Of a stretch of 64,000 bases of DNA, positions 3,690 to 39,538 are shown one piece after another. This DNA is from Psychrobacter fozii (GTDB taxonomy: Bacteria > Pseudomonadota > Gammaproteobacteria > Pseudomonadales > Moraxellaceae): positions 62,001-126,000 of the forward strand of contig NZ_QJSU01000007.1 in assembly GCF_003217155.1 (NCBI RefSeq). Direction: 5' to 3'. The notes under the pieces are model-generated. The model was given only the letters and a program-made list of their open reading frames with translations, was not told the DNA's origin and ran no database searches. Numbering within the stretch: the stretch's first letter is position 1; every line of letters begins with the position of its first letter. Made by a program: the position numbers and the translations under genes.

Positions 3690-5528
3690 ATGCAGCGTCA
3701 CATTTTATGCCCCATAGCAGGGCAAATATCATCTAAGAATGGTAATGATCAGCAAGCACCAACGAGCGGGTTAATGAGGCACGCTGCGATTTTTTCAATA
3801 TTTATACCTTTGCGGCTACTTGCTCTGACTGCATTATTTATAACGATTTTCATCACCTCTGCGCATGCTGACCATGACGGTCAACCACATGACCATGATA
3901 CAAATACTGCTCATAATGAGCCATCATTGGTCACAACTGCGAACGTATCCACTTCTACTCAAGCCAGCACCTCAGGTACCTCAAATATTTCAATAGCAAC
4001 TTCTACAAGTTCAGGCGATGCCATTCAACAATTTGTGGCGGGTGATTTTAGCCAGCGTCAAGCCATGTTAAGTGATTGGCCAGGCTCGGTTGAAAGTTTA
4101 GATAGCTTGGTTGAATTCATTGCAAATGATGAACTGTATCAAGGTAACAGTGGGCAAACATATTTACTGAATAAAGATGATCAGCTATTTACCTATCCCA
4201 ATAAAGAAGAGACAGCCGACTGGCCTAGTGACTTATCACAAATAACCTTGACCAATGCGCTGCGCTCGGCGCTCATTTTTGGACAAGCTAAGGTCAAGCT
4301 AGCATCTGACAAACCTGCACAGCGACTACAAGCAGTTGATATTTTAGCCAACAATATTGACCAAGTAGATCCGGCCATTATTACGACAGCAGCGGCAAAT
4401 GAAGACAGTGCTAAAGTCAAAAAGGCACTAACTGCATTACAGGCTCGTATTGATTTCAAAAATGGTGACCTACCCACTCAAATCGCAGCCGCAAAGCTAC
4501 TTGCTGATAGTGATAACCCACAAGTTTTGGTCGATATTGAATCTGCTCTCGCGGCTGATGGCTTAGATGCCTCGCTTAAAACGGCGCTTATCGATGCTGA
4601 ATCCAGTGTGTCACGGCGTATTGAAATAAGTACATGGACGGGTCATATTTTCACTGGTATGAGTACCGCCAGTATTTTACTGCTAGCGGCTCTTGGCCTT
4701 GCCATTACCTTTGGCTTACTTGGCGTGATTAATATGGCGCATGGTGAGCTGATTATGATTGGGGCTTATACCACTTATATGGTGCAAAACTTCTTTCAAG
4801 CTTATATGCCAGATATGGCAGGTTGGTATTTGCTTGCCGCTATTCCGGCTGCTTTTTTAGTCAGCGCTGTTATCGGCATGATTATTGAGCGCATTGTCAT
4901 TCGCCCACTATATGGTCGTGAGCTAGAAACATTGCTGGCAACATTTGGGGTGAGCTTAATATTGATGCAACTGGTGCGGATGATTTTCGGTGCTCAGAAC
5001 GTTGAAGTTAGTAACGTGGCATGGCTCAGCGGTGCATATCAAGTGTCATCAAGTTTGGTACTACCTTATAACCGTATCGCCATTATTGGTTTTACGGTCA
5101 TCATCGTGGCGCTACTGGTGTACTTACTTAATAAGACCCGATTTGGATTATTTATACGCGCAGTCACCCAAAACCGCCAAATGGCAAAAGCAGTTGGTAT
5201 TCCTTCTGCACGTATCGATATGATGGCATTTGGTTTGGGTTCTGGACTTGCAGGCATGGCAGGCTGCGCGCTTGCTCAAGTAGGCAATGTGGGTCCTGAC
5301 TTGGGACAAACCTATATCATTGATACATTTTTAGTCGTCGTCGTCGGCGGTGTCGGTCAAGTATGGGGTGCAGTACTAGCAGCCTTAGGACTTGGTGTGA
5401 GTGGTACGGTACTCGAGATTGGTATCGGTGCAGTACTGGCTAAGATTGTATTGTTGGTTCTTGTGATTCTGTTTATTCAGAAACGGCCACAAGGTTTATT
5501 TGCACTTAAAGGCCGCTTTGTCGAATAA
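3690..5528 (+). CDS. urtB: Urea ABC transporter permease UrtB
   Basis: Inner-membrane permease of the LivH branched-chain amino-acid/urea class. 612 residues from ATG 3690, which has GGGAG 6 bases upstream; the longer TTG-initiated reading from 3627 lacks such a site. The N-terminus has a signal-like hydrophobic segment (about residues 35-58), then a His/Asp-rich stretch (HADHDGQPHDHD), a periplasmic helical region of about 200 residues typical of proteobacterial UrtB, and at about 325-610 the LivH-like membrane domain with GLLGVINMAHGELIMIGAY. Second gene of the operon; the His-rich stretch could bind metal but this is speculation. Confidence 0.92.
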   Translation: MQRHILCPIAGQISSKNGNDQQAPTSGLMRHAAIFSIFIPLRLLALTALFITIFITSAHADHDGQPHDHDTNTAHNEPSLVTTANVSTSTQASTSGTSNISIATSTSSGDAIQQFVAGDFSQRQAMLSDWPGSVESLDSLVEFIANDELYQGNSGQTYLLNKDDQLFTYPNKEETADWPSDLSQITLTNALRSALIFGQAKVKLASDKPAQRLQAVDILANNIDQVDPAIITTAAANEDSAKVKKALTALQARIDFKNGDLPTQIAAAKLLADSDNPQVLVDIESALAADGLDASLKTALIDAESSVSRRIEISTWTGHIFTGMSTASILLLAALGLAITFGLLGVINMAHGELIMIGAYTTYMVQNFFQAYMPDMAGWYLLAAIPAAFLVSAVIGMIIERIVIRPLYGRELETLLATFGVSLILMQLVRMIFGAQNVEVSNVAWLSGAYQVSSSLVLPYNRIAIIGFTVIIVALLVYLLNKTRFGLFIRAVTQNRQMAKAVGIPSARIDMMAFGLGSGLAGMAGCALAQVGNVGPDLGQTYIIDTFLVVVVGGVGQVWGAVLAALGLGVSGTVLEIGIGAVLAKIVLLVLVILFIQKRPQGLFALKGRFVE

Positions 5529-5538
5529 GGAGATTCCT

Positions 5539-6609
5539 ATGATACTGACCAAATTACTGTCTGATACCCCGCGTAGTGCTATTTTAATTGGCTTATGTTT
5601 TGCCGTACTACTGATACTGCCTTGGCTACATCTTATGCCGGAGACCTCAGCCTTTCACCTTTCAGCCTACTGGATTACCCTGATTGGTAAAATCATGGCA
5701 CTGGCCATGGTCGCTCTGGCGCTAGATCTCGTCTGGGGCTATGCTGGTATTTTGAGCTTGGGACATGGTTTGTACTTTGCCTTAGGTGGTTATGCATTTG
5801 GCATGTACCTAACACGCGAAACGGCAGGCGATGCGCTTCCTGATTTTATGCGATTTTTGAGCTGGACCGAGATGCCATGGTACTGGGCTGGCACGCAGCA
5901 TTTTTGGTGGGCAGTCGCACTGGTTGTATTAGTGCCTGGCTTGGTTGCTTTTATCTTTGGTTTCTTTGCCTTTCGCTCCAAAATCAAAGGGGTGTACTTT
6001 TCTATCATCACTCAAGCCATGGTCTATGCAGCAGCCTTGCTATTCTTCCGTAATGAGACAGGCTTCGGCGGTAACAATGGCTTTACTGGTTTTACTACCC
6101 TTTTAGGCTACGACATTACCGCTGCCTCTACTCGTTCAATGCTGTGCTTTGTCACTGCCGTAGCATTGTTAATCTCTTATATAGGTTTGCGTCATTTAAT
6201 GAATCAGCCGTATGGGCGAGTGCTTGGCGCTATTCGTGATAGCGAAAACCGCTTGCAGTATTTAGGTTACCGTACGTTGTGGTACAAGCTATCCGCTTGG
6301 GTGTTGTCAGCTGTCATCGCTGGTATCGCAGGTGCGCTATATGTGCCGCAGGTAGGCATTATCAATCCGAGTGAAATGAACCCAGTGAACTCGATTGAGA
6401 TAGCTGTCTGGGTAGCGACTGGTGGTAGAGGAAGCTTAATTGGCGCTATCTTAGGTACTGGTGTGGTGAATGCTGTGAAAACCTACTTTACGGTCGCCTA
6501 CCCTGAATTTTGGCTATTGATATTAGGTGGACTGTTCGTCGTCGTGACGTTGTTTTTACCCAATGGCATTATGGGCTTGTTCGATCGCTTCAAAAAGGAG
6601 AAACAATAA
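5539..6609 (+). CDS. urtC: Urea ABC transporter permease UrtC
   Basis: Second inner-membrane permease (LivM-like), 356 residues, about 10 membrane segments. The conserved family stretch with GYAGILSLGHGLYFALGGYA is visible near residue 70, with GAIRDSENRLQYLGY typical of UrtC/LivM near the coupling loop. The ATG at 5539 has AAGGAG 8 bases upstream and lies just after the urtB stop; an in-frame upstream reading overlaps urtB and lacks a ribosome site. The stop codon overlaps the urtD start by one base (TAATG), indicating translational coupling. Confidence 0.93.
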   Translation: MILTKLLSDTPRSAILIGLCFAVLLILPWLHLMPETSAFHLSAYWITLIGKIMALAMVALALDLVWGYAGILSLGHGLYFALGGYAFGMYLTRETAGDALPDFMRFLSWTEMPWYWAGTQHFWWAVALVVLVPGLVAFIFGFFAFRSKIKGVYFSIITQAMVYAAALLFFRNETGFGGNNGFTGFTTLLGYDITAASTRSMLCFVTAVALLISYIGLRHLMNQPYGRVLGAIRDSENRLQYLGYRTLWYKLSAWVLSAVIAGIAGALYVPQVGIINPSEMNPVNSIEIAVWVATGGRGSLIGAILGTGVVNAVKTYFTVAYPEFWLLILGGLFVVVTLFLPNGIMGLFDRFKKEKQ

Positions 6610-9476: not shown

Positions 9477-10106
9477 ATGATTAACAGCAATAACGAGCAG
9501 GGCTATTTAGACTTGCTCAAACACGTTTTATCCACAGGCACGGAAAAAGGCGATCGTACTGGCACTGGTACGCTCAGCCACTTTGGCGCACAGCTACGTT
9601 TTGACCTAGCGTCAGGGTTTCCGCTATTGACCACCAAAAAAGTCCATTTTAAATCCATCGCCTATGAGCTATTTTGGTTTTTAAGTGGTAGTACTCACGT
9701 TGATTACTTGCAAGCCAATGGCGTACGCATTTGGAATGAATGGGCTACTGTAGAGCAGACGGCGCGCTTTAATCGTCCTGCTGGTGATTTGGGCCCTGTC
9801 TATGGTCATCAATGGCGCAATTATGGCGCAACCAAAGATGAAGACGGCAATTACCATGCTGATGGTGTCGATCAAATCACCCAAGTCATCGAGCAGATAA
9901 AGACCAACCCTAACTCACGCCGTTTGATTGTGTCTGGTTGGAACCCTGGAGAAGCAGATCAAGTCGCCTTACCGCCTTGTCATACCATGTTTCAATTCTT
10001 CGTCGCGGACAATAAACTGTCATGCCAGCTCTATCAGCGTTCAGCAGACTTATTTCTGTTATTCCCCTATAATGATAATTCACAGTATGAATTATTAGCA
10101 GCCTAG
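9477..10106 (+). pseudogene. thyA: thyA 5' part, host thymidylate synthase interrupted by the island
   Basis: Residues 1-194 are a normal ThyA (dUMP + methylene-THF to dTMP): LTTKK folate loop, Trp-rich region, catalytic Cys168 in ALPPCHTM, and QRSADLFL. At base 10057, inside codon 194, homology stops; 15 foreign residues follow to a stop at 10104-10106. The remaining family sequence ([15 protein letters not shown]...) is found 29.7 kb away at 39733. The truncated product lacks the C-terminal dUMP-binding residues (Asn and His/Tyr region) and should be inactive. Joining 9477-10057 to 39733-40012 gives 861 bases, 286 codons plus stop, in frame. Confidence 0.95.
10052..10057 (+). repeat. Left junction core (attL), ATTTCT
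   Basis: Six-base direct repeat ATTTCT shared with 39727-39732, at exactly the point where thyA homology stops. Six bases inward lies CCCCTA (10064-10069), matched in inverted orientation by TAGGGG at 39714-39719, seven bases inside the other core. This fits a small recombination core flanked by recombinase half-sites. Short 6-base cores are known for Tn554-type multi-recombinase elements. Whether the crossover is within these six bases is inferred. Confidence 0.8.
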
Positions 10107-10196
10107 GAACATCTCATTCCTCTATACTTATAGTGAACATCAGGTCATGCATAATATGATATACAATTTAATCTATGTATTACTTTGGCCTACATT

Positions 10197-11432
10197 ATGG
10201 ATATTAAGATTTGTTCCAATAGAGAATTAGACCTATCCAAATCTTATTTAATTAGTGAAATACTAGACTTATCATTGGATCAGAAAGTCAAAGTGAATGG
10301 GGTTGGTGTATTTGATGATAGTGGTAAAATCCTCCCTATTATCTCTGAGTATTTATCATATCAATTCAAGCACGAGAAGATTGCTTATGAAACAGCAAAT
10401 ACATATGGCAAAAACCTAACTTACTTCTTAAAGTATATCCGTAGTCGTCCAGACTATAACGATGATGAAACTGATGAAGTATTCATTACAGTCCCAGGAT
10501 ATGTAATTCAGGAATACTTTACTTTCTTAAGTAGTGAAGAGCGTAGAAGTTCAGCTACTATTAGAAATCGTGATGGGGCAATATACGCTTTCATTAATTT
10601 CCTCTGCAGTTGCACGGAAGACCGTCAGCCGCTTAGAGAGGATAATCCATATAGTAATGGATACCTTTCAAAGGTGCCGAAGCGTACACCCATTATTTCA
10701 TGCACTCTTGATGATCTCTTCATATTGATTAAATCTACTCAATCAGAACGAGAAAGAGTAATACTTCAGTTTTTATATGACTCTGGTGTAAGGCGTTCGG
10801 AGCTGATCAGGGTTACTCTTAAAGATTTTAGAGATCCTATCAACTTTAACTCTGAAAAATTTATTTCAGCAGATTCTGATCAACCTATTCATGCAGGCTA
10901 CGTACCTTTAGCCATTAAAGGTAGCAAAGGGCGTGGAAATCAAATCAAACCAAGGTGGTCTTTAGTTAGTTCGGCAACCATTAAACGCATACAGAAATAT
11001 CATGCGTCTCCGCTGTACAAAAAACATGCTCGCAAATATTCAAGTCCAGATGAAACCCCAGCATTTTTTAATGCTAAAGGTACTCCTTATACACGTAGCG
11101 CGATCAACAAATTACTTGAGCGTCTGAGCAAGCGTGCAATAAAGAAAGGTCGCCTCAATAGAATCATCTCTCCTCACAAGTTACGGCATGGTAATGCCTA
11201 TGCAATATTACAATCAAATGACTTGGGATCCGACTATCTAGATCGGCTCGTTATTGTGCAGAAAAACTTAGGTCATAACCAGCTTAGTACTACCCAGATG
11301 TATACCAGCATTCCTCAGGAAATCTATAATAGTATTTGTGACGAGAACGGTGACTTAATAACTAGATCCGAGAAGATGAGGCGCTTGTCTGAACAGACGC
11401 AATTAAAAATTGGCATTAAGGACATCAAATGA
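10197..11432 (+). CDS. ginA: Tyrosine recombinase GinA
   Basis: First recombinase of the island operon, 411 residues from ATG 10197 (an upstream TTG at 10185 is possible). N-terminal SAM-like core-binding domain at about 50-145, then the catalytic domain with Arg in DSGVRRSEL (about 200), HKLRHG (327-331), LGH (358-360) and the nucleophile in QMYTSI (Tyr369). All hallmark residues of an active tyrosine recombinase are present. Its stop overlaps the ginB start (ATGA), so the operon is translationally coupled. Comparable to TnpA of Tn554. Confidence 0.88.
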   Translation: MDIKICSNRELDLSKSYLISEILDLSLDQKVKVNGVGVFDDSGKILPIISEYLSYQFKHEKIAYETANTYGKNLTYFLKYIRSRPDYNDDETDEVFITVPGYVIQEYFTFLSSEERRSSATIRNRDGAIYAFINFLCSCTEDRQPLREDNPYSNGYLSKVPKRTPIISCTLDDLFILIKSTQSERERVILQFLYDSGVRRSELIRVTLKDFRDPINFNSEKFISADSDQPIHAGYVPLAIKGSKGRGNQIKPRWSLVSSATIKRIQKYHASPLYKKHARKYSSPDETPAFFNAKGTPYTRSAINKLLERLSKRAIKKGRLNRIISPHKLRHGNAYAILQSNDLGSDYLDRLVIVQKNLGHNQLSTTQMYTSIPQEIYNSICDENGDLITRSEKMRRLSEQTQLKIGIKDIK

Positions 11433-13885
11433 AAAGGTATGGAATAGCAATTGATGGGATTCATGATGATCTTTATGAGCTAGAAACTATCGAAGTAGAC
11501 TCTAAGAAAATTGAAGAAAAAAAACGGCAGGTTAAAGATGCTCAAGCAGCTGTTATAGAGTGGGTGTCAAGAACAGTCACAGATGTAGAAATACTGTGGG
11601 AAATACCCATTAGCAGGGCTAAAAATATTTTAGGTTTTGGTGTATTCACAGAATATATACAAAGTGCAGTAGGAATCTCACACCCTGAAGCACATAAATA
11701 CAGAGAGCTTACGAACCCTTTGATTGAACAGATGATTAGAGAGGGGATTATAGTAATACCAAATGAAAAATTCAAAACTGCTAGCATCGAAAACAGAAGA
11801 AAGCTACTAAATTGGTACAGACAGCTATCAAAAGAAGAAAAGTATGCATTACCTATTTTTGGTAATAAGATTTCGTTTGGGAAAATGTCCTCGGGACAAT
11901 TTCCCATAAAAATAAATTCCTTAAAGCTTCACGTTGTTAAAGAGGCTTTAGACTTTATTCACAAAGATCTCGAAAAAATTGGTCTAATCAATCCTAACTA
12001 TAAAAGCGTTGCTGAAAGAACAAATGAAGCGGATATCAATAGAAAAAATCCCCTTGAAAGTCAGATAAGCCGTTTTAATAGATTAGCAGCAACGAACTTA
12101 AATACTGCTAGCAACTTCTTTGTTCCTTCAGAATCAGAACCATTTATTCAGGTTGAACAACTATTTGCTTCACAATGCAAGGCTATCTATTCAGAATCAG
12201 GCAGGAGCAATTATAGAATTGCGAGTAGTTCATTTATTAATTTTCTGTCTGAACTATATGGAACTGGGCCTTTAAAAATCATGGAAGTTATTGATGAACA
12301 TACTCTATCTAGATATCGGAAATATTTAGAGCAAAAAATAATAAGCAAAGAGATATCAAGTCATCATGCAAATACAACTTTGAGTTCAGTACGTAAAACA
12401 CTATCTAGGCTAACTCAAGTACGCGACATGGAGTATAGTTTTTTCGATATAAATGGGTTTGCTACGAGTAGAGAAACAGATACTAAAAAGCCATTTACAA
12501 TGAACGAGCGGATCCAAATATTGGATGCTATTGAAAAAGGATTAATAGAATCTAGAGCATCTCTTACACCTTACGAAAAAACGGGTATAGGTAGAAATCC
12601 TTTGGACAAAAAAGGTTTCATTATAAGAGGTCTCTCGACATTAGAGAATGCGCGATGGCTCTTTGAAAACCTCTTAATGTGTAAGCCAGTTCATTACAAT
12701 ACAGCTAAATCATCTATTGAGAAGTCTTTCTTAAGAATTATTGCCAATTCAGACAAGGGTCTGAGCAAGATATATGACGAATGGGGTGTTACCCCGATAG
12801 TACATGTAGACATACTCACACCCTACCTTTTAAGGCTTGCCCAAATTACTGGTTTAAATGTAGATCCTTTACTTTCTCTTAATATGAATGATTATGTAGA
12901 TTCTCACCCAGCAACATCACGACCTTGTCTCAGATATTGGAAAGAGCGATCTGATGGTCATAAAGAGTACCACCTTGATCTTTTTAATGCAGAACTGACA
13001 TGGCTTACATCATCTCAAACTAAGTCGGTAAAAATTATTTTTGAAGAATTAGACCAATTAACTAGTGGGATTCGGCAAGACATTGAAGATGATGCTTTTA
13101 AAGACAGGTTGTTCATCTATCAGTCGGATAGTACAAAAAAGCACGGCAGAGTGTCTCCAATATTAGGAAACAAACAAATAAATGCAAAAGCATTAGGAGC
13201 TAGTTTATCTAGGTTTGTTGAGAAATATAATTTAAAAAATGATGCAGGAGAGCCGCTAACTCTTACAATAAGTCGGTTTAGACCAACTTTTGTTAGTGAG
13301 ATGCTTAAAAATGGCGTACCTCTACGTGAAATCCAGCTCATGTTGGGACACTCCTCAATTCAAACGACTATTGGTTATCTCGATTCTTTAGATCTTAACT
13401 CAATAAGTAGAATCAAGATAAATGATAAATTAAGAGAGATACATCAATCGACTCTGGATAAACAGATTGAGAAGTTGCCAGAAGATATAAAGTCCAAAAA
13501 CAATCATGAGTTAGTAACGAGCTTTCATACTCCATTAGCTGAGTGCAGAAACATCTTTGACCCGCCAGACTTTGTAAAAAATCTTTCGTCCTACATACCT
13601 GGTACTCCATGTTCACAATATAATAAGTGTTTAGGTTGTGACAATGTCATTATTACAGCCAAGAACCTCCCTGAAATTTTTGCAATGAAGCGTGACTATA
13701 CTCTTTTGGTAGAGCACAATCGCGTCATGGACACACCCTATGGGCATGTGATTTCAGAAAATTTAGAACTGATAAAAGGCATTACAGACCCAGAGCTATC
13801 TGATTTTTCCTTAGAAGATTTAGAGAATGGGCAACGTTTAGCAGAATACATTGAAACGACCACACTAGTTGACGGAGTAATCTAA
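11429..13885 (+). CDS. ginB: Large tyrosine recombinase-like protein GinB
   Basis: 818 residues, second recombinase of the operon, overlapping ginA by 4 bases and ginC by one base. A long N-terminal region (about 1-230) precedes a core-binding domain (about 235-330) and a catalytic-like domain (about 450-680). Motifs read by eye: ITGLNVDPLL where the first catalytic Arg is expected (Asn instead), ISRFRPTF in place of HxLRHT, then LGHSS and IGYLD with the likely nucleophilic Tyr. Thus some catalytic residues look replaced. A C-terminal Cys cluster (GTPC-x5-CLGC, with an earlier Cys at AECRN) is a probable zinc site typical of these recombinases. Confidence 0.85.
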   Translation: MKRYGIAIDGIHDDLYELETIEVDSKKIEEKKRQVKDAQAAVIEWVSRTVTDVEILWEIPISRAKNILGFGVFTEYIQSAVGISHPEAHKYRELTNPLIEQMIREGIIVIPNEKFKTASIENRRKLLNWYRQLSKEEKYALPIFGNKISFGKMSSGQFPIKINSLKLHVVKEALDFIHKDLEKIGLINPNYKSVAERTNEADINRKNPLESQISRFNRLAATNLNTASNFFVPSESEPFIQVEQLFASQCKAIYSESGRSNYRIASSSFINFLSELYGTGPLKIMEVIDEHTLSRYRKYLEQKIISKEISSHHANTTLSSVRKTLSRLTQVRDMEYSFFDINGFATSRETDTKKPFTMNERIQILDAIEKGLIESRASLTPYEKTGIGRNPLDKKGFIIRGLSTLENARWLFENLLMCKPVHYNTAKSSIEKSFLRIIANSDKGLSKIYDEWGVTPIVHVDILTPYLLRLAQITGLNVDPLLSLNMNDYVDSHPATSRPCLRYWKERSDGHKEYHLDLFNAELTWLTSSQTKSVKIIFEELDQLTSGIRQDIEDDAFKDRLFIYQSDSTKKHGRVSPILGNKQINAKALGASLSRFVEKYNLKNDAGEPLTLTISRFRPTFVSEMLKNGVPLREIQLMLGHSSIQTTIGYLDSLDLNSISRIKINDKLREIHQSTLDKQIEKLPEDIKSKNNHELVTSFHTPLAECRNIFDPPDFVKNLSSYIPGTPCSQYNKCLGCDNVIITAKNLPEIFAMKRDYTLLVEHNRVMDTPYGHVISENLELIKGITDPELSDFSLEDLENGQRLAEYIETTTLVDGVI

Positions 13886-15993
13886 TGAACTATGAAACAA
13901 AGCTTAATGTATTAACAGGTTTTGTAGGGCATCGTTTCTATATTTTAGATACTTTAAATCCTACTATAGAGCAGCAAAGTGAGTACCGTAATGATGAGTA
14001 CACAGATAATATAGAATATATGACATCTCTTATGGAAAAACCTGTATCGAAATTATCAAAGTTTTCTGACGTCTCTTGGGACTTTAATAACGACTATCCT
14101 AATGCTGCACGAAATGTTCAGGGTGCAAAGCTTCGCATTAGTTTTTCAAAGTATACAGAGATCCCACTATTCGTTTTAATAGAAATGAAAGTTATATTTG
14201 AGTTGGCCTTGCTAAACAATTCGATTTTCAAGCTTCAGAGTAAGGAAGGACAAAATCGAACAAAAAAAGTCTTAAAAGCTAATTCCTTAATTACAGTTTT
14301 CGAAAGTGGCTTAACATTTATTAATGAAGTCTTTAAACAAGCCTCTCATGAGTTAGGTTTCGAATTTATTCATGAAAAGATCAGGTCTATATCTGACATA
14401 ACACCCGATCTTTATCACAAAGCCGCTCAAAGCTACGATCGCGTAAAAGGTGTAGAACTAGATAAGTTTTTCAAATATCTACGCAGCCCAGCTTCTGTTA
14501 AGTATGTATTTGAAAAGCCTATCGCTTATGTAGAGTTAAATAGCCTGAAATGGAAGAGAGTTGCTAATACTAATCCTTCGAAAAAAGAACAAGTACTGCC
14601 AGATCTGGTATTTGAATCTCTCTCGAAAATGGCTTCCTTTATCATAGTTGACTTTTTAAGTGCTATAGGAGCTTCAGCAAAAATATCTGACTCTAACTCC
14701 TTTAAAAGGTTTGATACAAGCAACCATCTATCATGGGCAAACAAAGAAAGAGTAACCCACGAAATTTTAAATGCTTATATTGCTATGAGACTAGGAACTA
14801 AAGGTTATTCCGCGATTTTCGTTACAAATATGGTGGAGCCCTATAACTGGATGCTCAACAAAAATTCTAATGTTATGGGTGGACTGACTTTACGTAAAGC
14901 ATTGAAAAAACGTGGTTATAAGTTAGATAATCTTAGAGAATACTTTAACCTCGTAACGTATGCATGCACATATTTAGTAGGTCAGTATACAGGTATGAGA
15001 CCATCTGAATTATCAGAAGTAAGAGTTCAGGATTGTTCGTGCTTAGTTTACAGTGATGGCGTTTGGCTGATTGAAAGTACGGTCAAAAAACATAAGGGTG
15101 AGATTAGTACGGGTTTGTTTGACGATAGATGGGTAGCTATACCGATTGTTCAAGATGCAATATTAGCAGCTTCTTATATTTCAAAAATTAAAGTTTCACC
15201 TTATTTAGTTTCTAATGTAGATACAGTTAAACCTGGTAGTTCCCCTCAGTCAATGGATAGTAAGGGCGTTACACATCAAATGAATATTTTCATAAGTCAA
15301 CTACTCGGTAGAAGCATTGAGAATGAACTAAAATTCAACCCCTACATGCTAAGACACACATTAACATATCAGTTGTTTAAGGCTGAAGTGGGTCTACCTC
15401 TAATATCGTTTCAACTGAAGCATTTTGTAGAGAGTATATCCAAATATACATCTACTGGCTCTACTTCAACAGTAACGCTGGGTTATGGTGATATAGGTGA
15501 ATTGCTGTCAAGAGATGGGAATCGAAAAGGTGATAAGAAATCACTGCGTCGAGCAGCTGAATTAGAGGCTATTAAAACTGCCCATAATCCAAATGGCATA
15601 TATTATGGTGGTAAAGCGAATGAGCATAAAAAAGGTCTGATCAAGACGTTTAGTGGATATATAGCTGAAGGCTATACGGAAGATGAGATTTATGAGGCTA
15701 TGGTAGATCAAGGGGTTGCCATGGTCTATATGGGACAAGGGCTTTGCTATGGTGGTAGAGCGGAAGAAGATGACTCAAGCCTACCTTGTATTGGTTCACT
15801 ACGCTGCAATCCAGCTCGATGCAAACAAGCCGTTGTAACTATTAAACATGCCCCTAAATGGCGTGAAGTTTATACATTAAACAAGGTCAATCTCAATAAA
15901 CCAGAATATTCACACAATCGCGAGCAAATTCTAGCAGCAATGAACGAAGCCAAAATGGTATTGGAAAATCTTGGTGAGAAAGTTGAACTATGA
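13885..15993 (+). CDS. ginC: Large tyrosine recombinase GinC
   Basis: 702 residues, third recombinase. Catalytic domain at about 360-540: YTGMRPSEL (first Arg), NPYMLRHTL (second Arg/His; the usual leading His is Tyr), LKHF, and LGYGD with the probable nucleophile. The C-terminus carries a Cys cluster (GLCYGG ... LPCIGSLRCNPARCK), a likely zinc site similar in position to that of GinB. Start overlaps the ginB stop (TAATG), and its stop overlaps the ginD start (ATGA), so all four genes form one coupled unit. Confidence 0.86.
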   Translation: MNYETKLNVLTGFVGHRFYILDTLNPTIEQQSEYRNDEYTDNIEYMTSLMEKPVSKLSKFSDVSWDFNNDYPNAARNVQGAKLRISFSKYTEIPLFVLIEMKVIFELALLNNSIFKLQSKEGQNRTKKVLKANSLITVFESGLTFINEVFKQASHELGFEFIHEKIRSISDITPDLYHKAAQSYDRVKGVELDKFFKYLRSPASVKYVFEKPIAYVELNSLKWKRVANTNPSKKEQVLPDLVFESLSKMASFIIVDFLSAIGASAKISDSNSFKRFDTSNHLSWANKERVTHEILNAYIAMRLGTKGYSAIFVTNMVEPYNWMLNKNSNVMGGLTLRKALKKRGYKLDNLREYFNLVTYACTYLVGQYTGMRPSELSEVRVQDCSCLVYSDGVWLIESTVKKHKGEISTGLFDDRWVAIPIVQDAILAASYISKIKVSPYLVSNVDTVKPGSSPQSMDSKGVTHQMNIFISQLLGRSIENELKFNPYMLRHTLTYQLFKAEVGLPLISFQLKHFVESISKYTSTGSTSTVTLGYGDIGELLSRDGNRKGDKKSLRRAAELEAIKTAHNPNGIYYGGKANEHKKGLIKTFSGYIAEGYTEDEIYEAMVDQGVAMVYMGQGLCYGGRAEEDDSSLPCIGSLRCNPARCKQAVVTIKHAPKWREVYTLNKVNLNKPEYSHNREQILAAMNEAKMVLENLGEKVEL

Positions 15994-16499
15994 ATGCTTA
16001 TGACCAAAAGAATAGCGATGATTATGAAGCAAATACATTGTCATTGAAAAAGGCGTTATCAGACATTAAAGGCAATAAGACGTTGAAAGCCACTATCGCA
16101 CAACTTTCAGAAATGACTGGTATTCATCGGAACACCATCTCAAACAGAGTTTGGCCTGTCCAAAAGCTAAAACAGATCAGAGAAGCCCGAAAGACTAAAG
16201 ACAAATTGCATGAAGAACAAGTACGTTTAAGCACTACCGATGTAAAAAATGCACTTGAAGCAAAGCTAAGTCGAACACAAAATGAGACTGTTTACTGGTT
16301 TAATGAATATCAAGATATGAAACGTGTCGCTCAACATTCAGATAAACGGTTACAACAAATGAGAGAGTCACGAGATTACTATAAGACACTATCTGAAACA
16401 GATAAGAGGTCACTATCAGAAGCTGAACTAGAAATTAAGAAGTTGAGAAAAGTGTTAGCTTTAGAAGATACCATATCGAAGAAACAGTTTATGCACTAA
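15990..16499 (+). CDS. ginD: Small HTH/coiled-coil accessory protein GinD
   Basis: 169 residues, highly charged. An N-terminal helix-turn-helix (TIAQLSEMTGIHRNTISNR, about 38-56) is followed by a long predicted coiled coil (about 75-165). It resembles in size, place and layout TnpC of Tn554 and the fourth gene of GInt operons, which is reported to be needed for integration and excision. It is the last gene of the four-gene operon. The role as a DNA-bending or architectural factor is inference. Confidence 0.8.
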   Translation: MNAYDQKNSDDYEANTLSLKKALSDIKGNKTLKATIAQLSEMTGIHRNTISNRVWPVQKLKQIREARKTKDKLHEEQVRLSTTDVKNALEAKLSRTQNETVYWFNEYQDMKRVAQHSDKRLQQMRESRDYYKTLSETDKRSLSEAELEIKKLRKVLALEDTISKKQFMH

Positions 16500-16669: not shown

Positions 16670-17521
16670 TCAAACTGAGAATGGATACGCAATAGACTCA
16701 TGATACTGGTATCCTTCAACCTCAAAGTCATCCAATGTTACCCAGGTTTCAATATCTTCGAGAGACTTAATTTCAGGGTTGATGTGAAGCTTAGGTGCTG
16801 GATACGGTTCGCGTTTTAATTGCACATCGCGCATTAACTCTAATTGGTCTTCATAAATATGTGCATTTACAATCTTGTGATAAGCTTTTCCAGCCTCATG
16901 CCCCGTAATTTGAGCCATTAAAGCTAACAAAGCAAAAACCTGGACTTGATTGAAATTTTGACCTAATGGCACATCACAGGAACGTTGGGAAGAAGTCAAA
17001 TACAACTTTCCTCCTAACGATGAAAACGTATGGGTATGCATACAAGGACGTAAGCATCCCATATGAAACTCACCTGGATTATAGAAAGTTAGGATTTCAC
17101 CTCGGTCATCAATACCGTTCCGCAAGTTATCATAAATCTTACGAAGCTGATCAAACTCCTCTCCTACTGAATTACGCCATCTCCGTCCTTGTACACCATA
17201 TACTCGGCCCATATCATCCTCACCTTTACGATAAGGGTTGGCCAACCAAGCTTCATTTTTATTGGCATTGGCATTCCATGTATTACATCCAATAGCTCGA
17301 AACTGAGCTGCGCTATCATAACCACGTAGATATCCCAACAACTCTGCGATAGCCGTTTTCCAATAGCTTTTTCGGGTAGTCACTAAAGGAAACTCATTAG
17401 CGCCTACGTCGTATTCTAAATCAGCATTAATAACGGTTAAGCAACGCTTTCCAGTCCGTTCATTTTCGACCCATACGCCTTCATCAACTATACGTTGACA
17501 TAAATCTAGATATTGTCTCAT
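16670..17521 (-). CDS. thyA: Island-borne thymidylate synthase (replacement ThyA)
   Basis: 283 residues, complete and only distantly similar to the host Thy[11 protein letters not shown] folate/phosphate loop (46-55), catalytic Cys160 in [18 protein letters not shown] (179-191) and NAHIYEDQ (219-226) are all intact, so it should make dTMP. ATG 17521 has AAGG 7 bases upstream. It faces the ginABCD operon tail to tail. Because the island splits the host thyA, this gene most likely keeps the cell thymidine-independent. The divergent sequence suggests a source outside the genus, for example a phage-like thymidylate synthase; this is unproven. Confidence 0.9.
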
Positions 17522-17821
17522 TCAATAACCTTAATTGGACTGTATACTTTTCTCATGAGGTAATTTCTTATTGGCCCGTAATCACAACACATTTTACCTC
17601 ATGATTTCATTGAGCATTATAAAGTTTAAAGGCATGAATGTACAAACCTGTTCGTAAAGACTCACTGGCTTAAAAATCTATCAATAGACTATACTCAAAA
17701 GACAATATCTCTAAACGATAACCTATCTATCATTAGACTTGTTTATATTATTAAACGATAGTAATATCTTACTATTATCAATGAACATTAATTATCAAGT
17801 CTAAACAATAGAGGTGGCGCT
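17522..17821. promoter_or_regulatory. Divergent promoter region with putative resolvase res site
   Basis: 300 bases between the divergent thyA and resolvase genes. It contains AT-rich repeats: TAAACGATA at 17712-17720 and again at 17752-17760, and an inverted pair CTATC(17727)...GATAG(17761) spanning 35 bases, plus TCTAAACAATAG just before the resolvase ribosome site. Serine resolvases normally bind several such 28-35-base inverted sites upstream of their own gene, so this is a candidate res site with autoregulation. Inference from layout. Confidence 0.5.
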
Positions 17822-18412
17822 ATGACCGTTCGTATTTATGTGAGAGCCAGTACTAAGGATCAAGACGCTACCAGAGCATTGGCTGATTTAATTACTTTTA
17901 GTACAAGCTATAGTGATAACTACATGGAGTACGTTGAGCACTTCAGTGGTACTAAGCTCGATAGACCAGCATTAGCTAAGCTGCTAGAGGACGCTGAGCA
18001 AGACGATATACTACTAGTTGAAAGTGTTGATAGACTTAGTCGTCTCTCACAAGATGATTTTGCGATTCTAAAGCAGCGTATCAAAGACAAGGGATTACGA
18101 TTGGTGGTGGCTGATCTACCAACCACGCATACGGTTAACGAGGGTATGACAGGTGAGATCCTAAGAGTGATTAACGATATGCTGATCGATTTATTGGCGA
18201 CCATGGCAAAGCTTGATAACGATAAGCGTAGAGAGCGCATTAAACAAGGGTTAGCCAACAGTGGCTATAAGCCCACTGGTAAGAAAGCCAATACCGCAAA
18301 ACACAATCGTATTAAAGAATTGGCCAGTCAAAACAATATGACAAAAGAGGAAGTCGCTAATGCAGTTGGTGTTGGCGTAGCTACGGTTTATCGAGTACTA
18401 AAGCAAGGATGA
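17822..18412 (+). CDS. Serine resolvase/invertase family recombinase
   Basis: 196 residues. The catalytic Ser is in VRAST near residue 10, followed by the family motifs VESVDRLSRL (about 66-75) and DLLATMAKLDNDKRRERI at the start of the dimer helix, then a short arm and a C-terminal Hin-type helix-turn-helix (EEVANAVGVGVATVYRVLKQG). Strong ribosome site GAGGTGG. Resolvases of this size are typical of plasmids and Tn3-type transposons, where they resolve dimers or cointegrates. It heads the block that carries the beta-lactamase, which hints that the block came from a plasmid or transposon. Confidence 0.9.
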   Translation: MTVRIYVRASTKDQDATRALADLITFSTSYSDNYMEYVEHFSGTKLDRPALAKLLEDAEQDDILLVESVDRLSRLSQDDFAILKQRIKDKGLRLVVADLPTTHTVNEGMTGEILRVINDMLIDLLATMAKLDNDKRRERIKQGLANSGYKPTGKKANTAKHNRIKELASQNNMTKEEVANAVGVGVATVYRVLKQG

Positions 18413-18904: not shown

Positions 18905-19801
18905 ATGGACGTACGTCAACACAAGGCTAGTTTTTTTAGCGTAGTAATTACTTTTTTATGTCTCACGCTATCATTAAATGCTAATGCCACAGACTCAATA
19001 CTTGAAGCGGTTACCAATGCTGAAACTGAATTAGGCGCTAGAATTGGTCTAGCTGCGCATGATTTGGAAACGGGAAAACGTTGGGAACATAAATCTAATG
19101 AACGTTTTCCTCTAAGTAGTACCTTCAAAACACTTGCCTGTGCAAACGTTCTTCAAAGAGTTGATCTAGGTAAAGAAAGAATTGATAGAGTTGTGAGATT
19201 CTCTGAAAGCAATCTCGTTACATACTCACCTGTAACAGAAAAACATGTGGGTAAAAAAGGGATGTCGCTCGCAGAGCTGTGTCAGGCCACATTATCAACC
19301 AGTGATAATTCAGCTGCCAATTTTATTCTACAAGCGATTGGGGGACCTAAGGCTCTAACGAAATTTTTACGTTCCATTGGCGACGATACTACGCGCCTTG
19401 ATCGCTGGGAAACAGAACTTAACGAAGCGGTGCCTGGAGATAAGCGAGACACGACAACACCAATTGCAATGGTAACGACACTTGAAAAGTTACTAATTGA
19501 CGAAACACTATCTATCAAATCTCGTCAACAACTAGAATCTTGGCTTAAAGGTAATGAGGTTGGCGATGCATTGTTTCGTAAAGGCGTTCCAAGTGACTGG
19601 ATAGTAGCAGATAGAACAGGCGCTGGTGGTTATGGGTCGCGTGCTATTACTGCGGTGATGTGGCCTCCAAATCGCAAGCCTATCGTAGCCGCTCTATACA
19701 TTACAGAGACAGACGCCTCGTTTGAAGAAAGAAATGCTGTCATTGCGAAAATTGGTGAGCAAATAGCGAAGACAGTATTAATGGAGAATAGCCGTAACTG
19801 A
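18905..19801 (+). CDS. blaCARB: Class A beta-lactamase, CARB/RTG (carbenicillinase) subfamily
   Basis: 298 residues with a signal peptide (about 1-28, ending NANA). Active-site motifs in order: STFK (72-75, catalytic Ser), SDN (133-135), WETELN omega loop with the general-base Glu169, and RTG (237-239) in place of the common KTG. The Arg at this place is the defining mark of the RTG branch of CARB enzymes, which hydrolyse penicillins including carbenicillin. AAAGGAAAG lies 11 bases before the ATG. The exact allele cannot be named from memory. It is located in the resolvase/iteron block, not next to an integron or IS. Confidence 0.92.
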
Positions 19802-20717: not shown

Positions 20718-22346
20718 CTATTCTTTGCCGTTGTCGAGTATCACTTTCTTGCCATCGTCGTACTGTTGTACCACTACATTCTTTCCCTGAACCTGACAGC
20801 GGGCGATGGCGTATGGAGAGAGTTCGGCACCAAAGTCACGGTAGGCCCAGCGAACCAAGGATGCAGACATGATAATGAGTACTGGTATCATCGGTAGCGC
20901 TACTAGGATAGTGGAGGTCTGAACCGCTTTGAGACCACCAACGGATAGCAGCCCTATACCAACCAAGGCAAGCATAAGAGTCCACAAGATACGATTCCAT
21001 CTGGCAGGCTCTTCATAACCAGTGAGTTCCTTGGTACAGATCGATGCCAGCATGTAGGCAGAGGAATCTACGGTTGTGGCCAGAAACACAAAGCATAGCA
21101 ATGTGAATAACGGGATGACCAGCCAGGCTACCGGCAAGGTTTTTAAGATCGCTACGACTGTTGCCGGTATGCCATCACTGCTCAGAATCGCCTGCAGATC
21201 GACTGCACCACTAAGCTGCAGGTCAATAGCATAACCGCCCCAGATTGCAAAGAAGGCCCAGCAACCGAGGGTACCCCAGACTACGCCATGAACGATTATG
21301 TTCTTAATGGTACGACCGCGCGAGATACGTGCTACAAACAAACCCATCATAGGCGCGTAAGCGATCCACCAGGCCCAGTAGAAAATGGTCCAACTCTCAG
21401 GGAAGCCACCCTTTGCCACTGGATCAGTCCAGAAGTTAATGCGGAAAAAATTATCTAAGAACAACCCTACACTGTTAGTCCAAAGGTTCAACAGAAAGAT
21501 CGTTGGCCCCACAATCAAGACGAAAAACAGCAGTAGAAAACCTAGCGCCGCATTGATATTTGATAGCGTCTGAATTCCCTTGTTCAGACCATTATAGACA
21601 CTCCAGGCTATCATCGCGGTCCAGGCGGTCAGAATCCCCATCTGCAATCCAAACGAATCTGCCAGTCCGAACATCTCCTGAAAGAGAGCGGACACCAAAG
21701 GCACGGAAAGTCCTAGAGAGGTTCCCACACCACCGACGATTGAGAAGATCACAATGACGTCGATCAGCTTGCCGATAGGGCCGTCCACCGCTTTGCCGAG
21801 TATACCGCGGCAGGCTTCGCTGAGGCGTAGTACATTGACCTTGCGTACGTACAGAACATAAGCCATAGGCAGGGCAGGCATCAGATACAGCGCCCAAGGC
21901 ACTACGCCCCAATGGAACATCGGATACATGGCAGCCCATTCGGCTGCCTCAGTGGTGCCGCCTTCAATACCCAAAGGTGGGCCTGACAAGAGGTAGAGCG
22001 GTTCTACAAAGGCCCAGTTACAGATTGAGATGCCAATTCCCGCACAGAACAGCATGGAAATCCAAGGAACTGTCTTGAACTCCGGCTGCTCGTCGGGTGC
22101 ACCCATTTTGATCCGCCCCAGAGGACCGTATGCAAGCCAGACCATAAAAAAGAAACTGCCGATTCCGGTTAGTAAGTAGAGCCAACCGAAGGTGCCGGTG
22201 AACGAACTTAAAAGTCCATCAACAGCGGCTTTTCCCGCCTCCGGATATAAAGCAAGAGGAATGCTTGCAGCTAAAATAGCAATTAGCGAAGACCAGAAAA
22301 TTCCCGGGTCGATCGTTAATTTTTTGTTTTTTTGAACGGTATTCAT
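20718..22346 (-). CDS. BCCT family transporter (betaine/carnitine type)
   Basis: 542 residues, 12 membrane segments, betaine-choline-carnitine transporter family. The core stretch FYWAWWIAYAPMMGLFVARISRGRT (given here by its parts FYWAWW and ARISRGRT) is present near residue 325-350, and the CaiT-like GTSLGLSVPLV near 215. In the CaiT region GLQKGVRIASDVR, this protein has GLNKGIQTLSNIN, so the Arg that replaces sodium in CaiT appears absent and sodium-coupled uptake is plausible. ATG 22346 has GAGG 8 bases upstream. Context suggests import of carnitine or a related betaine. The reading frame continues in a coding-like way past the TAG stop (see findings). Confidence 0.85.
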   Translation of the reverse strand: MNTVQKNKKLTIDPGIFWSSLIAILAASIPLALYPEAGKAAVDGLLSSFTGTFGWLYLLTGIGSFFFMVWLAYGPLGRIKMGAPDEQPEFKTVPWISMLFCAGIGISICNWAFVEPLYLLSGPPLGIEGGTTEAAEWAAMYPMFHWGVVPWALYLMPALPMAYVLYVRKVNVLRLSEACRGILGKAVDGPIGKLIDVIVIFSIVGGVGTSLGLSVPLVSALFQEMFGLADSFGLQMGILTAWTAMIAWSVYNGLNKGIQTLSNINAALGFLLLFFVLIVGPTIFLLNLWTNSVGLFLDNFFRINFWTDPVAKGGFPESWTIFYWAWWIAYAPMMGLFVARISRGRTIKNIIVHGVVWGTLGCWAFFAIWGGYAIDLQLSGAVDLQAILSSDGIPATVVAILKTLPVAWLVIPLFTLLCFVFLATTVDSSAYMLASICTKELTGYEEPARWNRILWTLMLALVGIGLLSVGGLKAVQTSTILVALPMIPVLIIMSASLVRWAYRDFGAELSPYAIARCQVQGKNVVVQQYDDGKKVILDNGKE

Positions 22347-22509
22347 TACCTTTACCTCACACATAGTCCTTTAGGGAGGGGTACCTCAAGTTTTATTTGT
22401 TATTACTTGAGGTGATTATTACCGGCACTTTCAATTATTGATACCTTATATTTTTCTAATATTTAAAAAATTGTTTCAATAAAAATGTGTGTGAACCGGT
22501 AGAAAAAAG

Positions 22510-24603
22510 CTACTGTTGTAATCGAATCAAGGCATCGGCAGCGACTGCACCTTTACCTTTAGGCCTGACCATCAAAGGGTTGATATCCAGTTCGGTAACA
22601 CTGTCCCAGTGATCCATAGCAAAATCAGCTACGGCCATAATGGCATCTACTACGGCTTCCAAGTCGCCTTCCGGGCGCCCTCGAAAACCTCGCAGCAACG
22701 CGCTGCCTTTGAGTGATAGAACAGCCGTACTAGCTGCTTCTCGGGTGATTGGCAGCAGCATAATTGCACTGTCGTTGAGCAGGTTGACTAGAATCCCGCC
22801 CGTACCAATAATCAATGCCAGTCCGAACTGTTCATCTCTTTTGAGGCCAATGATCAGCTCGCCAACAAAGTCTGAAATCATAGGTTCGATCAGAAAGCGG
22901 GCATCGGCGAGCCCCTGTTCGGCTAAGCGGCCCGCCATTACCTCAACGGCGCTGGCCACGGCGCTGCCATCTTTAAGATTGAGCATGACGGCCCCAGCCT
23001 CGGTCTTGTGAGCCAGTCGGTCACTGACCCCTTTCATCACCACCGGGTAGCCAACTTCGTCCGCTGCTTCTACCACATCTGCTTTGCTTACACAGCGACC
23101 GCCAGGTAGTTGCAGACCATAGCGGCTAACCAGTTGCTTAGAGGCCCACTCATCTAGCATCTTGCTCTCGCCTTCCACCAATGAAGGCCCGCGCAGAAGT
23201 AATTGCTCAGGGTCATCCATTGCGGCCACTTGACGGCGGCGCTCGCCATAACGCACAAGCCGTGCCAACGCTGCAACACCATCTTTCAGGCTTTGCAATG
23301 GTGCAATACCAGCTTTCGCTAACCGCTGACGGGCGTTCTCCGGCATTAGCTCGCTGAGGTTAGAGATCACGGCGCAGGTCTTGGGGTGGTTGGCGTGAGC
23401 GGCGATTAAAGAATCAACCGCTACTTGCCATTCGTGATCGTCACCAATGCCCTGTTTGGGGAAATCTAACGCTAATACGGTAGCGTCGCAGTCGCCCTCC
23501 ATCATAATGCCAAATACCTCGGTACAGGCTTCAAGGTTGCCCCAAATCGAGGTGTTGTAGTCTAAGGGGTTGGAAAGACTGGCAAAATCGGGCAACCATT
23601 CACCTAGTTTTTGTTCCTGTACCTTGGATAAGCTTGGTAGCTGAAGATTATAGTGATCCAGACTATCGGCTAGCATGGCGCTATCACCGCCGGAGCAGGT
23701 CAGCACGCCGATACGATCCCCTTTGGGAAGTTCGCACAGGGAAGCAATCTTCAGGGTTTCAAGCAGCTCAGACAAAGAGTGCACACGAAGGATGCCCAAC
23801 CTATCGAACATTGCTTGATACATATCATCAGAGCCCGCTAAGGAGCTAGTATGACTCATGGTCAGCTGGGTGCCGATCTCCGAAGTACCTGCCTTGAGCA
23901 CTACCAGAGGAACGCCTTTCTCTAAAGCCTTCAAGGCAGCACGGCTGAACGTTTCAATATCTTTCAGCCCCTCGATATAAAAACCGATGGCGGTTACACG
24001 ATCGTCTTCGAGCAGTGGTTCGATATAGTCGCCTGCGCCTAACACCGCCTGATTGCCAACGCTGATTACATGGGTGATTGAAAGTGAGCGGCCGTGCATG
24101 GTCAGATTCAGCGCTACATTACCACTTTGGCTGATAATAGCGACGCCTTTGTCGGTACGCTCACCAGAAAGGCGGTCCGGCCATAACGCGACACCGTTGG
24201 TGAAATTTAGTAAGCCATAGCAGTTGGGGCCCACTAACGCCATGTCTCCGGCCGCTTCTACCAGTGAGTCTTGGAGTTCATCGCCATTGTCGCCTACCTC
24301 AGCAAAGCCAGCTGCGTAACAAACCACGCCACCGCACCCACGTTTATTCAGGTCGGCGACGGCTTGAACCGTCAGCTTAGCGTTGATGGATACGAACGCT
24401 GCGTCAGGAGTGCCAGGTAAATCAGCAATACTGGCGAAACAGGGTATACCAGCAATTTCGGCGCATTTGGGATTAACTACCCATATTTCGCCATCAAAGC
24501 CGATGTCTCGAGTGTTTTGGATGGGAAGTGCTAGGTTGGAACCGCCAACAAATACAATGCTGCGCGGTGAAAATAGTCGTTGAAGATTTTCTTGTTTTGT
24601 CAT
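22510..24603 (-). CDS. ADP-forming acyl-CoA synthetase (ACD family)
   Basis: 697 residues from ATG 24603 (MTKQENLQ). Single-chain alpha+beta layout: CoA-binding Rossmann domain (about 8-130, VFVGGSN), succinyl-CoA-synthetase-like domains (about 140-430, with SHTSSLAGS that contains the family His), and a C-terminal ATP-grasp domain (about 475-695). In this cluster it most likely activates carnitine or a related betaine to its CoA thioester, the job done by CaiB/CaiC in E. coli. DddX, the DMSP lyase described from Psychrobacter, belongs to the same superfamily and is an alternative; the CaiD/CaiE neighbours favour carnitine. Stop lies 164 bases before the transporter start. Confidence 0.82.
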   Translation of the reverse strand: MTKQENLQRLFSPRSIVFVGGSNLALPIQNTRDIGFDGEIWVVNPKCAEIAGIPCFASIADLPGTPDAAFVSINAKLTVQAVADLNKRGCGGVVCYAAGFAEVGDNGDELQDSLVEAAGDMALVGPNCYGLLNFTNGVALWPDRLSGERTDKGVAIISQSGNVALNLTMHGRSLSITHVISVGNQAVLGAGDYIEPLLEDDRVTAIGFYIEGLKDIETFSRAALKALEKGVPLVVLKAGTSEIGTQLTMSHTSSLAGSDDMYQAMFDRLGILRVHSLSELLETLKIASLCELPKGDRIGVLTCSGGDSAMLADSLDHYNLQLPSLSKVQEQKLGEWLPDFASLSNPLDYNTSIWGNLEACTEVFGIMMEGDCDATVLALDFPKQGIGDDHEWQVAVDSLIAAHANHPKTCAVISNLSELMPENARQRLAKAGIAPLQSLKDGVAALARLVRYGERRRQVAAMDDPEQLLLRGPSLVEGESKMLDEWASKQLVSRYGLQLPGGRCVSKADVVEAADEVGYPVVMKGVSDRLAHKTEAGAVMLNLKDGSAVASAVEVMAGRLAEQGLADARFLIEPMISDFVGELIIGLKRDEQFGLALIIGTGGILVNLLNDSAIMLLPITREAASTAVLSLKGSALLRGFRGRPEGDLEAVVDAIMAVADFAMDHWDSVTELDINPLMVRPKGKGAVAADALIRLQQ

Positions 24604-24665
24604 GATTAGAAACCTTATAAGCCCAAAAAAAGAGTTAGGGCGCGCTTGTGCGTGCCCTAGGGGAC

Positions 24666-25832: not shown

Positions 25833-26113
25833 TGTAAAGTCTCCAGGGAATGTTAGTGTTGCTGATTACGTGCCGTTTGTTTACGGGCCTAAACTCTTAT
25901 TTACTCTACGCAGGAGTGCAAGGGTGTGGTTGACCAAAAACGACGTATTTATCGTGAAATACGACAATGAGCGGTGTCGTTTTGTGGCGTAATATCTGTT
26001 CTGTCGTTTTGGTGCATTTTTATGACGATTTTGTGCAATGGGTATATCGGGCTTTGCGCTAAGGTGGTGGCAAGGGAACAACCAATACAAAAATAACAGA
26101 GGGATTGAACAAT
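25833..26113. promoter_or_regulatory. Divergent promoter region of the carnitine-type cluster
   Basis: About 280 bases between two divergent operons. It contains an inverted pair CGTATTT/AAATACG (25944-25963), ACGACA-N8-TGTCGT (25961-25980), and TGTCGTTTT twice as direct repeats at 25975 and 26002 (27 bases apart), with an inverted AAAACGACG at about 25937. These are candidate binding sites for the GlxA/AraC-type regulator encoded at 28344. Binding is inference. Confidence 0.55.
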
Positions 26114-26899: not shown

Positions 26900-26912
26900 A
26901 AGGAGATAGGTT

Positions 26913-27695: not shown

Positions 27696-27711
27696 TCAAA
27701 GGATGACTTTT

Positions 27712-36105: not shown

Positions 36106-36140
36106 GTAACTAGAAAAAATTAGCTACAATCTATATATCT

Positions 36141-36164
36141 AAGCCTCTTATTGAGGCTTGTTTT
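36141..36164 (+). terminator. Terminator between hsdR and hsdM
   Basis: AAGCCTC / GAGGCTT with a 5-base loop, followed by GTTTTATT. A typical intrinsic terminator, which separates hsdR from the hsdMS transcript. Confidence 0.75.
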
Positions 36165-36229
36165 ATTCATACTATTTATTAAAATCTATCGTTCATTAAG
36201 ATCCACTGTTTATTAAAAAGAGAAACAAC

Positions 36230-37705: not shown

Positions 37706-37707
37706 TC

Positions 37708-39510: not shown

Positions 39511-39538
39511 GTTTTAGTATTGGGCTAAGTGTTTTATA

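Follow-up and report, generated by a model that had tools for sequence, protein, structure and literature searches.

Integrating elements usually spare their targets, restoring the tRNA genes and repairing the gene ends that they hit, and thyA, which encodes thymidylate synthase, is needed for growth without thymine. What, then, becomes of a host in which an island has cut through thyA? The question is raised by a 64,000-nucleotide stretch of the Psychrobacter fozii genome (the whole stretch that was analysed, referred to here as the window), which harbors a 29.7-kb island of the GInt type (10052-39732) that cuts the host thyA at a locus flanked by the host lgt and dihydrofolate reductase genes. 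From the comparisons described below we consider it highly probable that the island inserts into thyA and brings a divergent replacement thyA that takes over the function of the broken gene. The initial annotation of this DNA had placed the insertion site inside a coding gene, which was borne out by the split pieces of thyA found with tblastn; neither the target gene nor the replacement thyA was named there, and both are the main point here. The features on which the argument relies are as follows.

9477-10057, + strand: 5' two thirds of the host thyA, including the 6-nt attL box (Pfam PF00303)
10052-10057: attL 6-nt box ATTTCT, presumably host-derived
10058-10106, + strand: left end of the island in the thyA frame, with an SsrA-tag-like tail and then a stop; contains CCCCTA at 10064-10069
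10185-11432, + strand: ginA, canonical tyrosine recombinase, 415 aa (Pfam Phage_integrase, 1.7e-13)
11429-13885, + strand: ginB, large tyrosine-recombinase-like protein with Arg I and His II replaced (Phage_integrase, 9.3e-11)
13885-15993, + strand: ginC, tyrosine-recombinase-like protein, 702 aa, with His II replaced by Tyr (Phage_integrase, 3.6e-05)
15990-16499, + strand: ginD, small protein
16670-17521, - strand: island-borne complete thyA, 283 aa (NCBIfam NF002498, 5.1e-171)
39727-39732: attR 6-nt box ATTTCT, presumably island-derived
39733-40012, + strand: 3' third of the host thyA

The tblastn search placed the 5' part of the host thyA within 9477-10106 and the 3' part at about 39731-40012, and PF00303 matched 9477-10106 (8.7e-76) over profile positions 2-186 of 266. 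The insertion severs the last ~94 codons of the host gene, a part of ThyA that presumably holds conserved substrate-binding residues, and should leave the host enzyme dead. Directly after ginD, on the opposite strand, lies the island thyA, which shares 31-33% identity with three intact thyAs of Psychrobacter hosts. When the P. fozii genome (completeness 100%) was searched with PF00303, the 283-aa gene and the two pieces of the host gene were all that was recovered, and thyX was not found in this genome. We infer that the divergent island gene beside ginD would take over the synthesis of deoxythymidine monophosphate, because no other intact gene for thymidylate synthase was found and because this one is under purifying selection and is retained. 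The island ThyA groups with the Vibrio-Proteus type (74.6% identity to a Vibrio phage and 79.2% to a Proteus record) and appears, from its sequence, to share the Gly-for-Arg change described for that clade (PMC6005164; here and below, cited papers stand for those portions of them that were available). Among phages it has matches in 3575 of 50,697 records and among plasmids in 498 of 72,556; one plasmid-borne thyA shows 78.7% identity.

Carriers of related islands were chosen by GinC similarity. Of 348 Moraxellaceae genomes searched, 14 had a GinC match (E of 0.001 or better), and 13 of these were counted (11 Psychrobacter and 2 Acinetobacter); G154, with a weak match of 29% over 94 residues, was not. 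All 13 Moraxellaceae carriers (11/11 Psychrobacter, 2/2 Acinetobacter) contained a 5' piece of the host thyA together with an intact 283-codon thyA, and 12 of them (10/11 Psychrobacter) contained the 3' piece, which was not found in G262. In three genomes (G256, G327 and G328) a contig break intervenes, and the rescue gene and ginD lie together on another contig. Full-length host thyA was present in 90 of the 94 Psychrobacter genomes without GinC, the exceptions being G310 and G335, with the rescue type only, G282 (84% complete), with a host thyA in two frames, and G296 (83% complete), with no thyA match. A GinC alignment scan of one genome per species (84,980 species) yielded 35 loci, 11 in Psychrobacter/Acinetobacter and 24 in Pseudomonas/Stutzerimonas; in all 24 of the latter both an N-terminal and a C-terminal piece of thyA were present beside one full-length copy, which stood right after ginD in 23 of the 23 loci reaching that far. 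An order-wide sample of 390 genomes contained 5 carriers, two of them new (G641 and G675) and both with the same arrangement, while a class-wide sample gave no further member, the one match in 369 genomes being the P. fozii genome itself. In total, a split host thyA and an intact rescue thyA were found together in 39/39 genomes (Psychrobacter, Acinetobacter, Pseudomonas/Stutzerimonas and one more family; G551 shares places with G739 and the pair was counted once), and the rescue gene follows ginD in 38 of the 39, the contig of L112 ending before that point. In P. helleri, ginA of locus L108 is preceded (4903-6205) by a tandem of two truncated thyA 5' pieces that differ from each other, as if there had been two rounds of insertion.

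The cut falls at one and the same profile position in all 39 genomes, whose thyAs belong to several subtypes, and this bears on whether the island instead entered hosts that already required thymine, for instance under trimethoprim, with the thyA cargo selected as a repair. Loss of thyA is a known response to trimethoprim-sulfonamide (PMC5476696), and the next host gene in the window encodes dihydrofolate reductase. Against such a history stand the single shared cut and the low dN/dS (ratio of nonsynonymous to synonymous substitution) that the host thyA 5' pieces keep (median 0.03, 13 of 15 pairs), and we regard it as very improbable.

Two types of rescue thyA, 28-33% identical to each other, were found. 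In the Moraxellaceae the gene is convergent with gin, and G641 has a 79.9% identical relative in the gin direction, whereas the Pseudomonas rescue thyA is of the other type, about 62% identical to E. coli ThyA. In 21 of 23 Pseudomonas loci the stop of ginD overlaps the start of the rescue gene by 4 bases, and judging by this arrangement the gene is in effect a fifth member of the gin operon. Since the two types are unrelated, the rescue function has been kept while the gene was exchanged at least once. The rescue open reading frame (ORF) was uninterrupted in 32/32 loci, and 6 of the 32 appear to have a break in one or more gin genes (L097, L098, L103, L125, L126 and L127), of which single cases may be sequencing errors. 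Among the Moraxellaceae copies, the median pairwise dN/dS was 0.039 for the rescue thyA, compared to 0.124 for GinA, 0.207 for GinB, 0.142 for GinC and 0.254 for GinD. In G310 and G335 (L075 and L074), a rescue-type thyA of 92.6% identity lies between the same flanking host genes; neither genome has a GinC match anywhere or a host thyA 5' piece, and part of the right end may survive there, as 39430-39564 is weakly matched (73%, 136 bp). We read these two loci as probable domesticated remnants that retained the rescue gene.

These observations also bear on the simplest alternative, namely that this is an ordinary GInt in which insertion into thyA and carriage of thyA are independent. The cargo of GInts is varied (PMC5385486), thyA is frequent among phages and also occurs on plasmids, and both plasmid copies of the module that were found (L224 and L225, each with thyA after ginD) keep the gene although L224 sits outside thyA. 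A chance cargo would hardly be expected directly after ginD in 38 of 39 genomes, in two unrelated types and two orientations, nor to remain intact both where gin decays and where gin has been lost, and we give this explanation very little credence.

How the rescue gene escapes the same fate is suggested by the codons at the crossover, which read DVPLGQN in the rescue ThyA and DLFLGVP in the Psychrobacter hosts. The rescue thyA is mismatched to the target attachment site and therefore should not be cut, so that it would not itself be a target. The overall divergence of the two genes suffices to explain this mismatch, and a special recoding is not claimed. Synonymous divergence (dS) between the window and other Psychrobacter was 0.20-0.56 for the island thyA, 0.32-0.48 for GinC and 0.52-0.73 for GinB (the GinB of L029 in G077 was dropped), compared to 1.1-1.6 for the host thyA piece, with one pair saturated; those parts of the island have therefore moved between species. 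The corresponding ranges were 0.29-1.46 for GinA and 0.12-0.89 for GinD.

Several results weigh against the replacement reading or narrow it. The GinA values are mostly as high as those of the host piece, which marks the module, as far as dS can tell, as a mosaic; its left part is often of the same age as the hosts and did not simply travel along with the remainder. The left end of the gin and thyA module on plasmid L224 lies outside thyA, and GInt insertion has been described as probably not fully inactivating its targets (PMC5385486). A GinB profile search for GInts at other sites returned only the thyA clade (a first look scored two candidates per genome), so the 39/39 describes this clade and not GInts at large; no GInt at another chromosomal site was found in it as a control, L224 being the only case at another site. 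With regard to the plasmids, the module of locus L224 (at about 6300 in the locus) is carried by a megaplasmid of P. putida, and an unrelated ORF holds its left end, the insertion there being off-target or at a secondary site; in the L225 copy an IS30 gene removed the left part, masking the site. Plasmid GinB matches below 30% identity were also seen, and searches of phages and viral contigs with GinC found nothing.

The ends of the island were compared as the six bases before the island (left) and the six before the host (right) in 32 of the 39 genomes; outside this count are G262 (no 3' piece), L105, L112 and L113 (no left end), and L108, L118 and L124 (right ends). The two boxes were identical in 9/32 and different in 23/32. 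In 32 translations the left box reads as thyA codons, and the right box often does not (e.g., TCCAAT, GCTATT). Two Pseudomonas genomes have the left box GGGCCT or GGGTCT and the right box CTTCCT, which is the left box of Stutzerimonas G725. Recombination here appears to follow the scheme of GInts and of strand-biased circularizing integrative elements (SEs), in which the left 6-nt box would stay host sequence and the incoming box would move to the right end, where it would record a former host. The SE work likewise describes footprint and fingerprint boxes, with the box by one motif derived from the host and the other imported (PMC10214605). In the window, ATTTCT was confirmed at both ends, as were the inverted CCCCTA and TAGGGG (39714-39719) just inside them, and the 6-base core that the initial annotation had proposed proved to be the best-fitting box in the 32-genome comparison. 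A box placed one base further right was dropped, the next base in Pseudomonas being island sequence on the left and a host wobble base on the right. As stand-alone evidence, the short repeats CCCCTA, ATTTCT and TGTGCATAA were also dropped, with counts in the window at chance level (CCCCTA on both strands, 12 seen and 13.8 expected; ATTTCT, 18 occurrences on the + strand). What makes the end repeats informative is their position, one at each of the severed ends of thyA, and the recurrence of the same ends in relatives.

Does the left end contribute anything beyond the crossover? In 36/36 readable left ends (L105, L112 and L113 have none), the reading frame of the host thyA continues across the junction, and a stop follows 14-16 codons into the island. 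The resulting terminus is -AA, -LA, -VA or -TA in 29 of the 36, comprising 25/25 outside Psychrobacter and 4/11 within it, as in EEPAQYAMAA, AANSAQYALAA and KSAQYAFLA of Pseudomonas and NNSQYEVLAA of Acinetobacter. The truncated ThyA of the window ends in such an SsrA-like tail; the transfer-messenger RNA (tmRNA) tag of its own host is ANDENYALAA, and the tmRNA tags of 31 hosts all end in -AA (ANDENYALAA or ANDETYALAA in Psychrobacter). ClpXP recognises -LAA ends. It is conceivable, and we propose it tentatively from these termini, that the tail is a degron that marks the fragment for ClpXP-type proteolysis, so that in many members the truncated ThyA would be cleared.

A different origin of these tails has a similar claim to attention, namely that they arise as a by-product, from a DNA motif that a recombinase binds at the left end. 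Conservation at the DNA level is seen in the neighbouring GCACAGTAC stretch, which also resembles the TGTGC words of the right end, and because the tails are homologous the lineages do not count as independent draws. The pattern of codon changes argues the other way. Among eight deep representatives, hand-chosen and with two exceptional tail types excluded, pairs agreed in the last two codons at 0.88 for position 1 and 0.79 for position 2 compared to 0.39 for position 3, and agreement in the 45 nt after the stop was 0.37. Ends in AA are rare in the background, at 7/324 frames of at least 200 codons in the Pseudomonas loci and 2/109 in the Moraxellaceae loci when frames with tail-like ends are left aside (17/341 and 6/113 when the truncated thyA frames are included). 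Because position 3 varies while positions 1 and 2 agree and AA ends are rare, selection on the protein end is indicated, and the SsrA-like terminus looks conserved at the protein level in these alignments. Against this must be set the fact that 7 of the 11 Psychrobacter left ends have no SsrA-like terminus (GVIDRI, GVLDRI, GAMKHI), which is expected of a by-product and means that the tail is not essential. In addition, the codon-position test across the GinC tree is modest, with 16 third-position and 13 other changes in the last two sense codons of 34 left ends (p=0.013 when one third is expected; two left ends counted among the 36, those of G256 and G262, lack -AA and are outside this tree). 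The 12 and 5 changes seen when only the 29 tails ending in -A are taken are inflated by that selection. We treat the by-product explanation, like the degron reading, as a real possibility rather than as the probable one.

The degron reading, taken together with the replacement, describes a sequence of 'swap and trash' in which a needed host gene is destroyed, a substitute without the attachment site is supplied, and the broken protein is tagged and cleared; as a whole it is put forward provisionally. If the tail is a degron, this is to our knowledge the first known case of an integrating element tagging the product of its victim for destruction. A literature search found no report of an integrating element adding a tag, a weak absence given that subscription papers and preprints lie largely outside its coverage. 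In mycobacteriophage integration-dependent immunity, as described in PMC8092301, an attachment site in a coding gene likewise sets an SsrA-like -AA ending; there integration removes the tag from the phage repressor, whereas here it would add one to a broken host enzyme.

To which known family does the element belong? Its architecture led us to file it as a GInt, a placement that is supported and set against descriptions of GInts and not against reference proteins. The gene order, overlaps, sizes, tripartite layout and 6-nt crossover fit the description in PMC5385486, in line with the match to GInts that the initial annotation had claimed. A four-gene operon of three integrase-like genes and a small fourth (ginABCD) lies at one end, followed by cargo and a short AT-rich 3' end; insertion is site-specific, with thyA split in 39/39 genomes and one plasmid copy elsewhere; and a 6-nt staggered crossover and perhaps imperfect end repeats appear to be shared as well. 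Of the 10-17 nt imperfect direct repeats that flank GInts, a 6-nt box alone was seen here, with the identity in 9/32 genomes noted above. One reported trait did not match, since in GInts the first Arg is missing from GinC, whereas here GinB is without Arg I and GinC keeps it (32/32 loci each). GInts have also been called Tn6571-family transposons (PMC10121019). The main text of PMC5385486, in the portion available, contains neither 'thyA' nor 'thymidylate', whereas the present island severs its target gene and supplies a replacement.

That the island is instead an SE is improbable. Its boxes differ between the ends, with a left box that would be host sequence and a right one that would be imported, and it has a four-gene module, as in the SE description (PMC10214605). 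The SE order intA-tfp-intB-srap, however, was not found; compared by description only, the 415-aa canonical recombinase is first here, the large protein second and the 702-aa non-canonical protein third, and SEs are reported as a protein cluster separate from GInts (PMC10214605). Tn554 resembles the module in having two tyrosine recombinases, a small protein (TnpC) and a 6-nt footprint (PMC10214605) and differs, again by description only, in having no third recombinase-like gene. The assignment to GInt is thus retained.

We found one described precedent for target replacement, the 65-kb island in tmk of Pseudomonas putida KT2440, for which replacement of the target function was shown by genetics (PMC10653934). 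It likewise splits a needed gene of the thymidylate pathway and supplies a non-orthologous replacement, and differs in that the replacement is a deoxynucleoside monophosphate kinase and the module consists of two tyrosine recombinases, a TetR regulator and a protein of no stated function (PMC10653934). No report of an island in thyA carrying thyA was found, again a weak absence within the same coverage.

The gin module itself was confirmed as four overlapping ORFs (10185-16499, + strand), with successive overlaps of 4, 1 and 4 bases. The ATG at 10197 is a likelier start for ginA than the TTG at 10185, judging by relatives that align from the ATG. Three tyrosine recombinases had been proposed, and GinA, GinB and GinC do match Phage_integrase, GinC with 24 bits and thus below the curated cut-off of 27.1; the catalytic residues of GinB and GinC, however, are changed. 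Across 32 loci, the GinA residues R, K, H, R and H are retained in 32/32 and Y in 31/32. In GinB, Asn replaces Arg I in 32/32 and the His of HxxR is Ser in 27, Ala in 4 and Thr in 1, and in GinC the same His is Tyr in 32/32. GinD has no Pfam or NCBIfam family match. The GinB frames of L096, L098, L117 and L123 are longer than usual (958-977 codons), a second stretch resembling the GinB N-terminus occurs in L096, L098 and L117 and ahead of the L123 GinB, and the frame is about 1411 codons in L126/L227.

The remainder of the island is laid out as follows.

17616-17644, - strand: candidate promoter of the island thyA, TGTACA-17-TATAAT (10/12, consensus scan only, which found 6 sites compared to 5.4 in shuffles)
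17522-39510: cargo region, with a resolvase, a class A beta-lactamase, a BCCT transporter and CoA-enzyme genes, an AraC-type regulator, a CBASS-type cyclase with Cap15, and type I restriction-modification
39511-39726: short AT-rich right end, with TAGGGG and a G+C content of 32.0% over 39511-39713 compared to 42.2% for the window

Within the cargo, the resolvase gene (17822-18412) and the class A beta-lactamase gene (18905-19801) come first. The genes at 20718-28302 encode a BCCT transporter, a CoA ligase, an acyl-CoA dehydrogenase, an enoyl-CoA hydratase, an SDR protein and a hexapeptide protein, and look like a carnitine/betaine pathway. A 432-aa ORF with a GTG start (29851-31149, - strand) had no Pfam or PADLOC match. 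At 31617-33344 a Cap15-type effector gene (31617-32255, + strand) overlaps a convergent CBASS-type cyclase gene (32244-33344, - strand), and the type I restriction-modification genes R, M and S (33670-39510) are the last cargo ahead of the right end.

Overall, these results indicate that a clade of islands breaks a DNA-synthesis gene in four or more genera and replaces it by one of two unrelated substitutes, and a gene of a drug-target pathway thereby becomes part of a mobile element. If the fragment is indeed tagged as proposed, the cell would be spared a useless or interfering protein, integration would amount to a controlled protein replacement, and through the exchanged gene the island would be tied to the survival of its host. 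The clade also shows non-orthologous replacement as it occurs in nature, with its stages still to be seen, namely the host gene only, both genes, and the island gene only, and it may explain some of the phylogenetically odd thyA genes.

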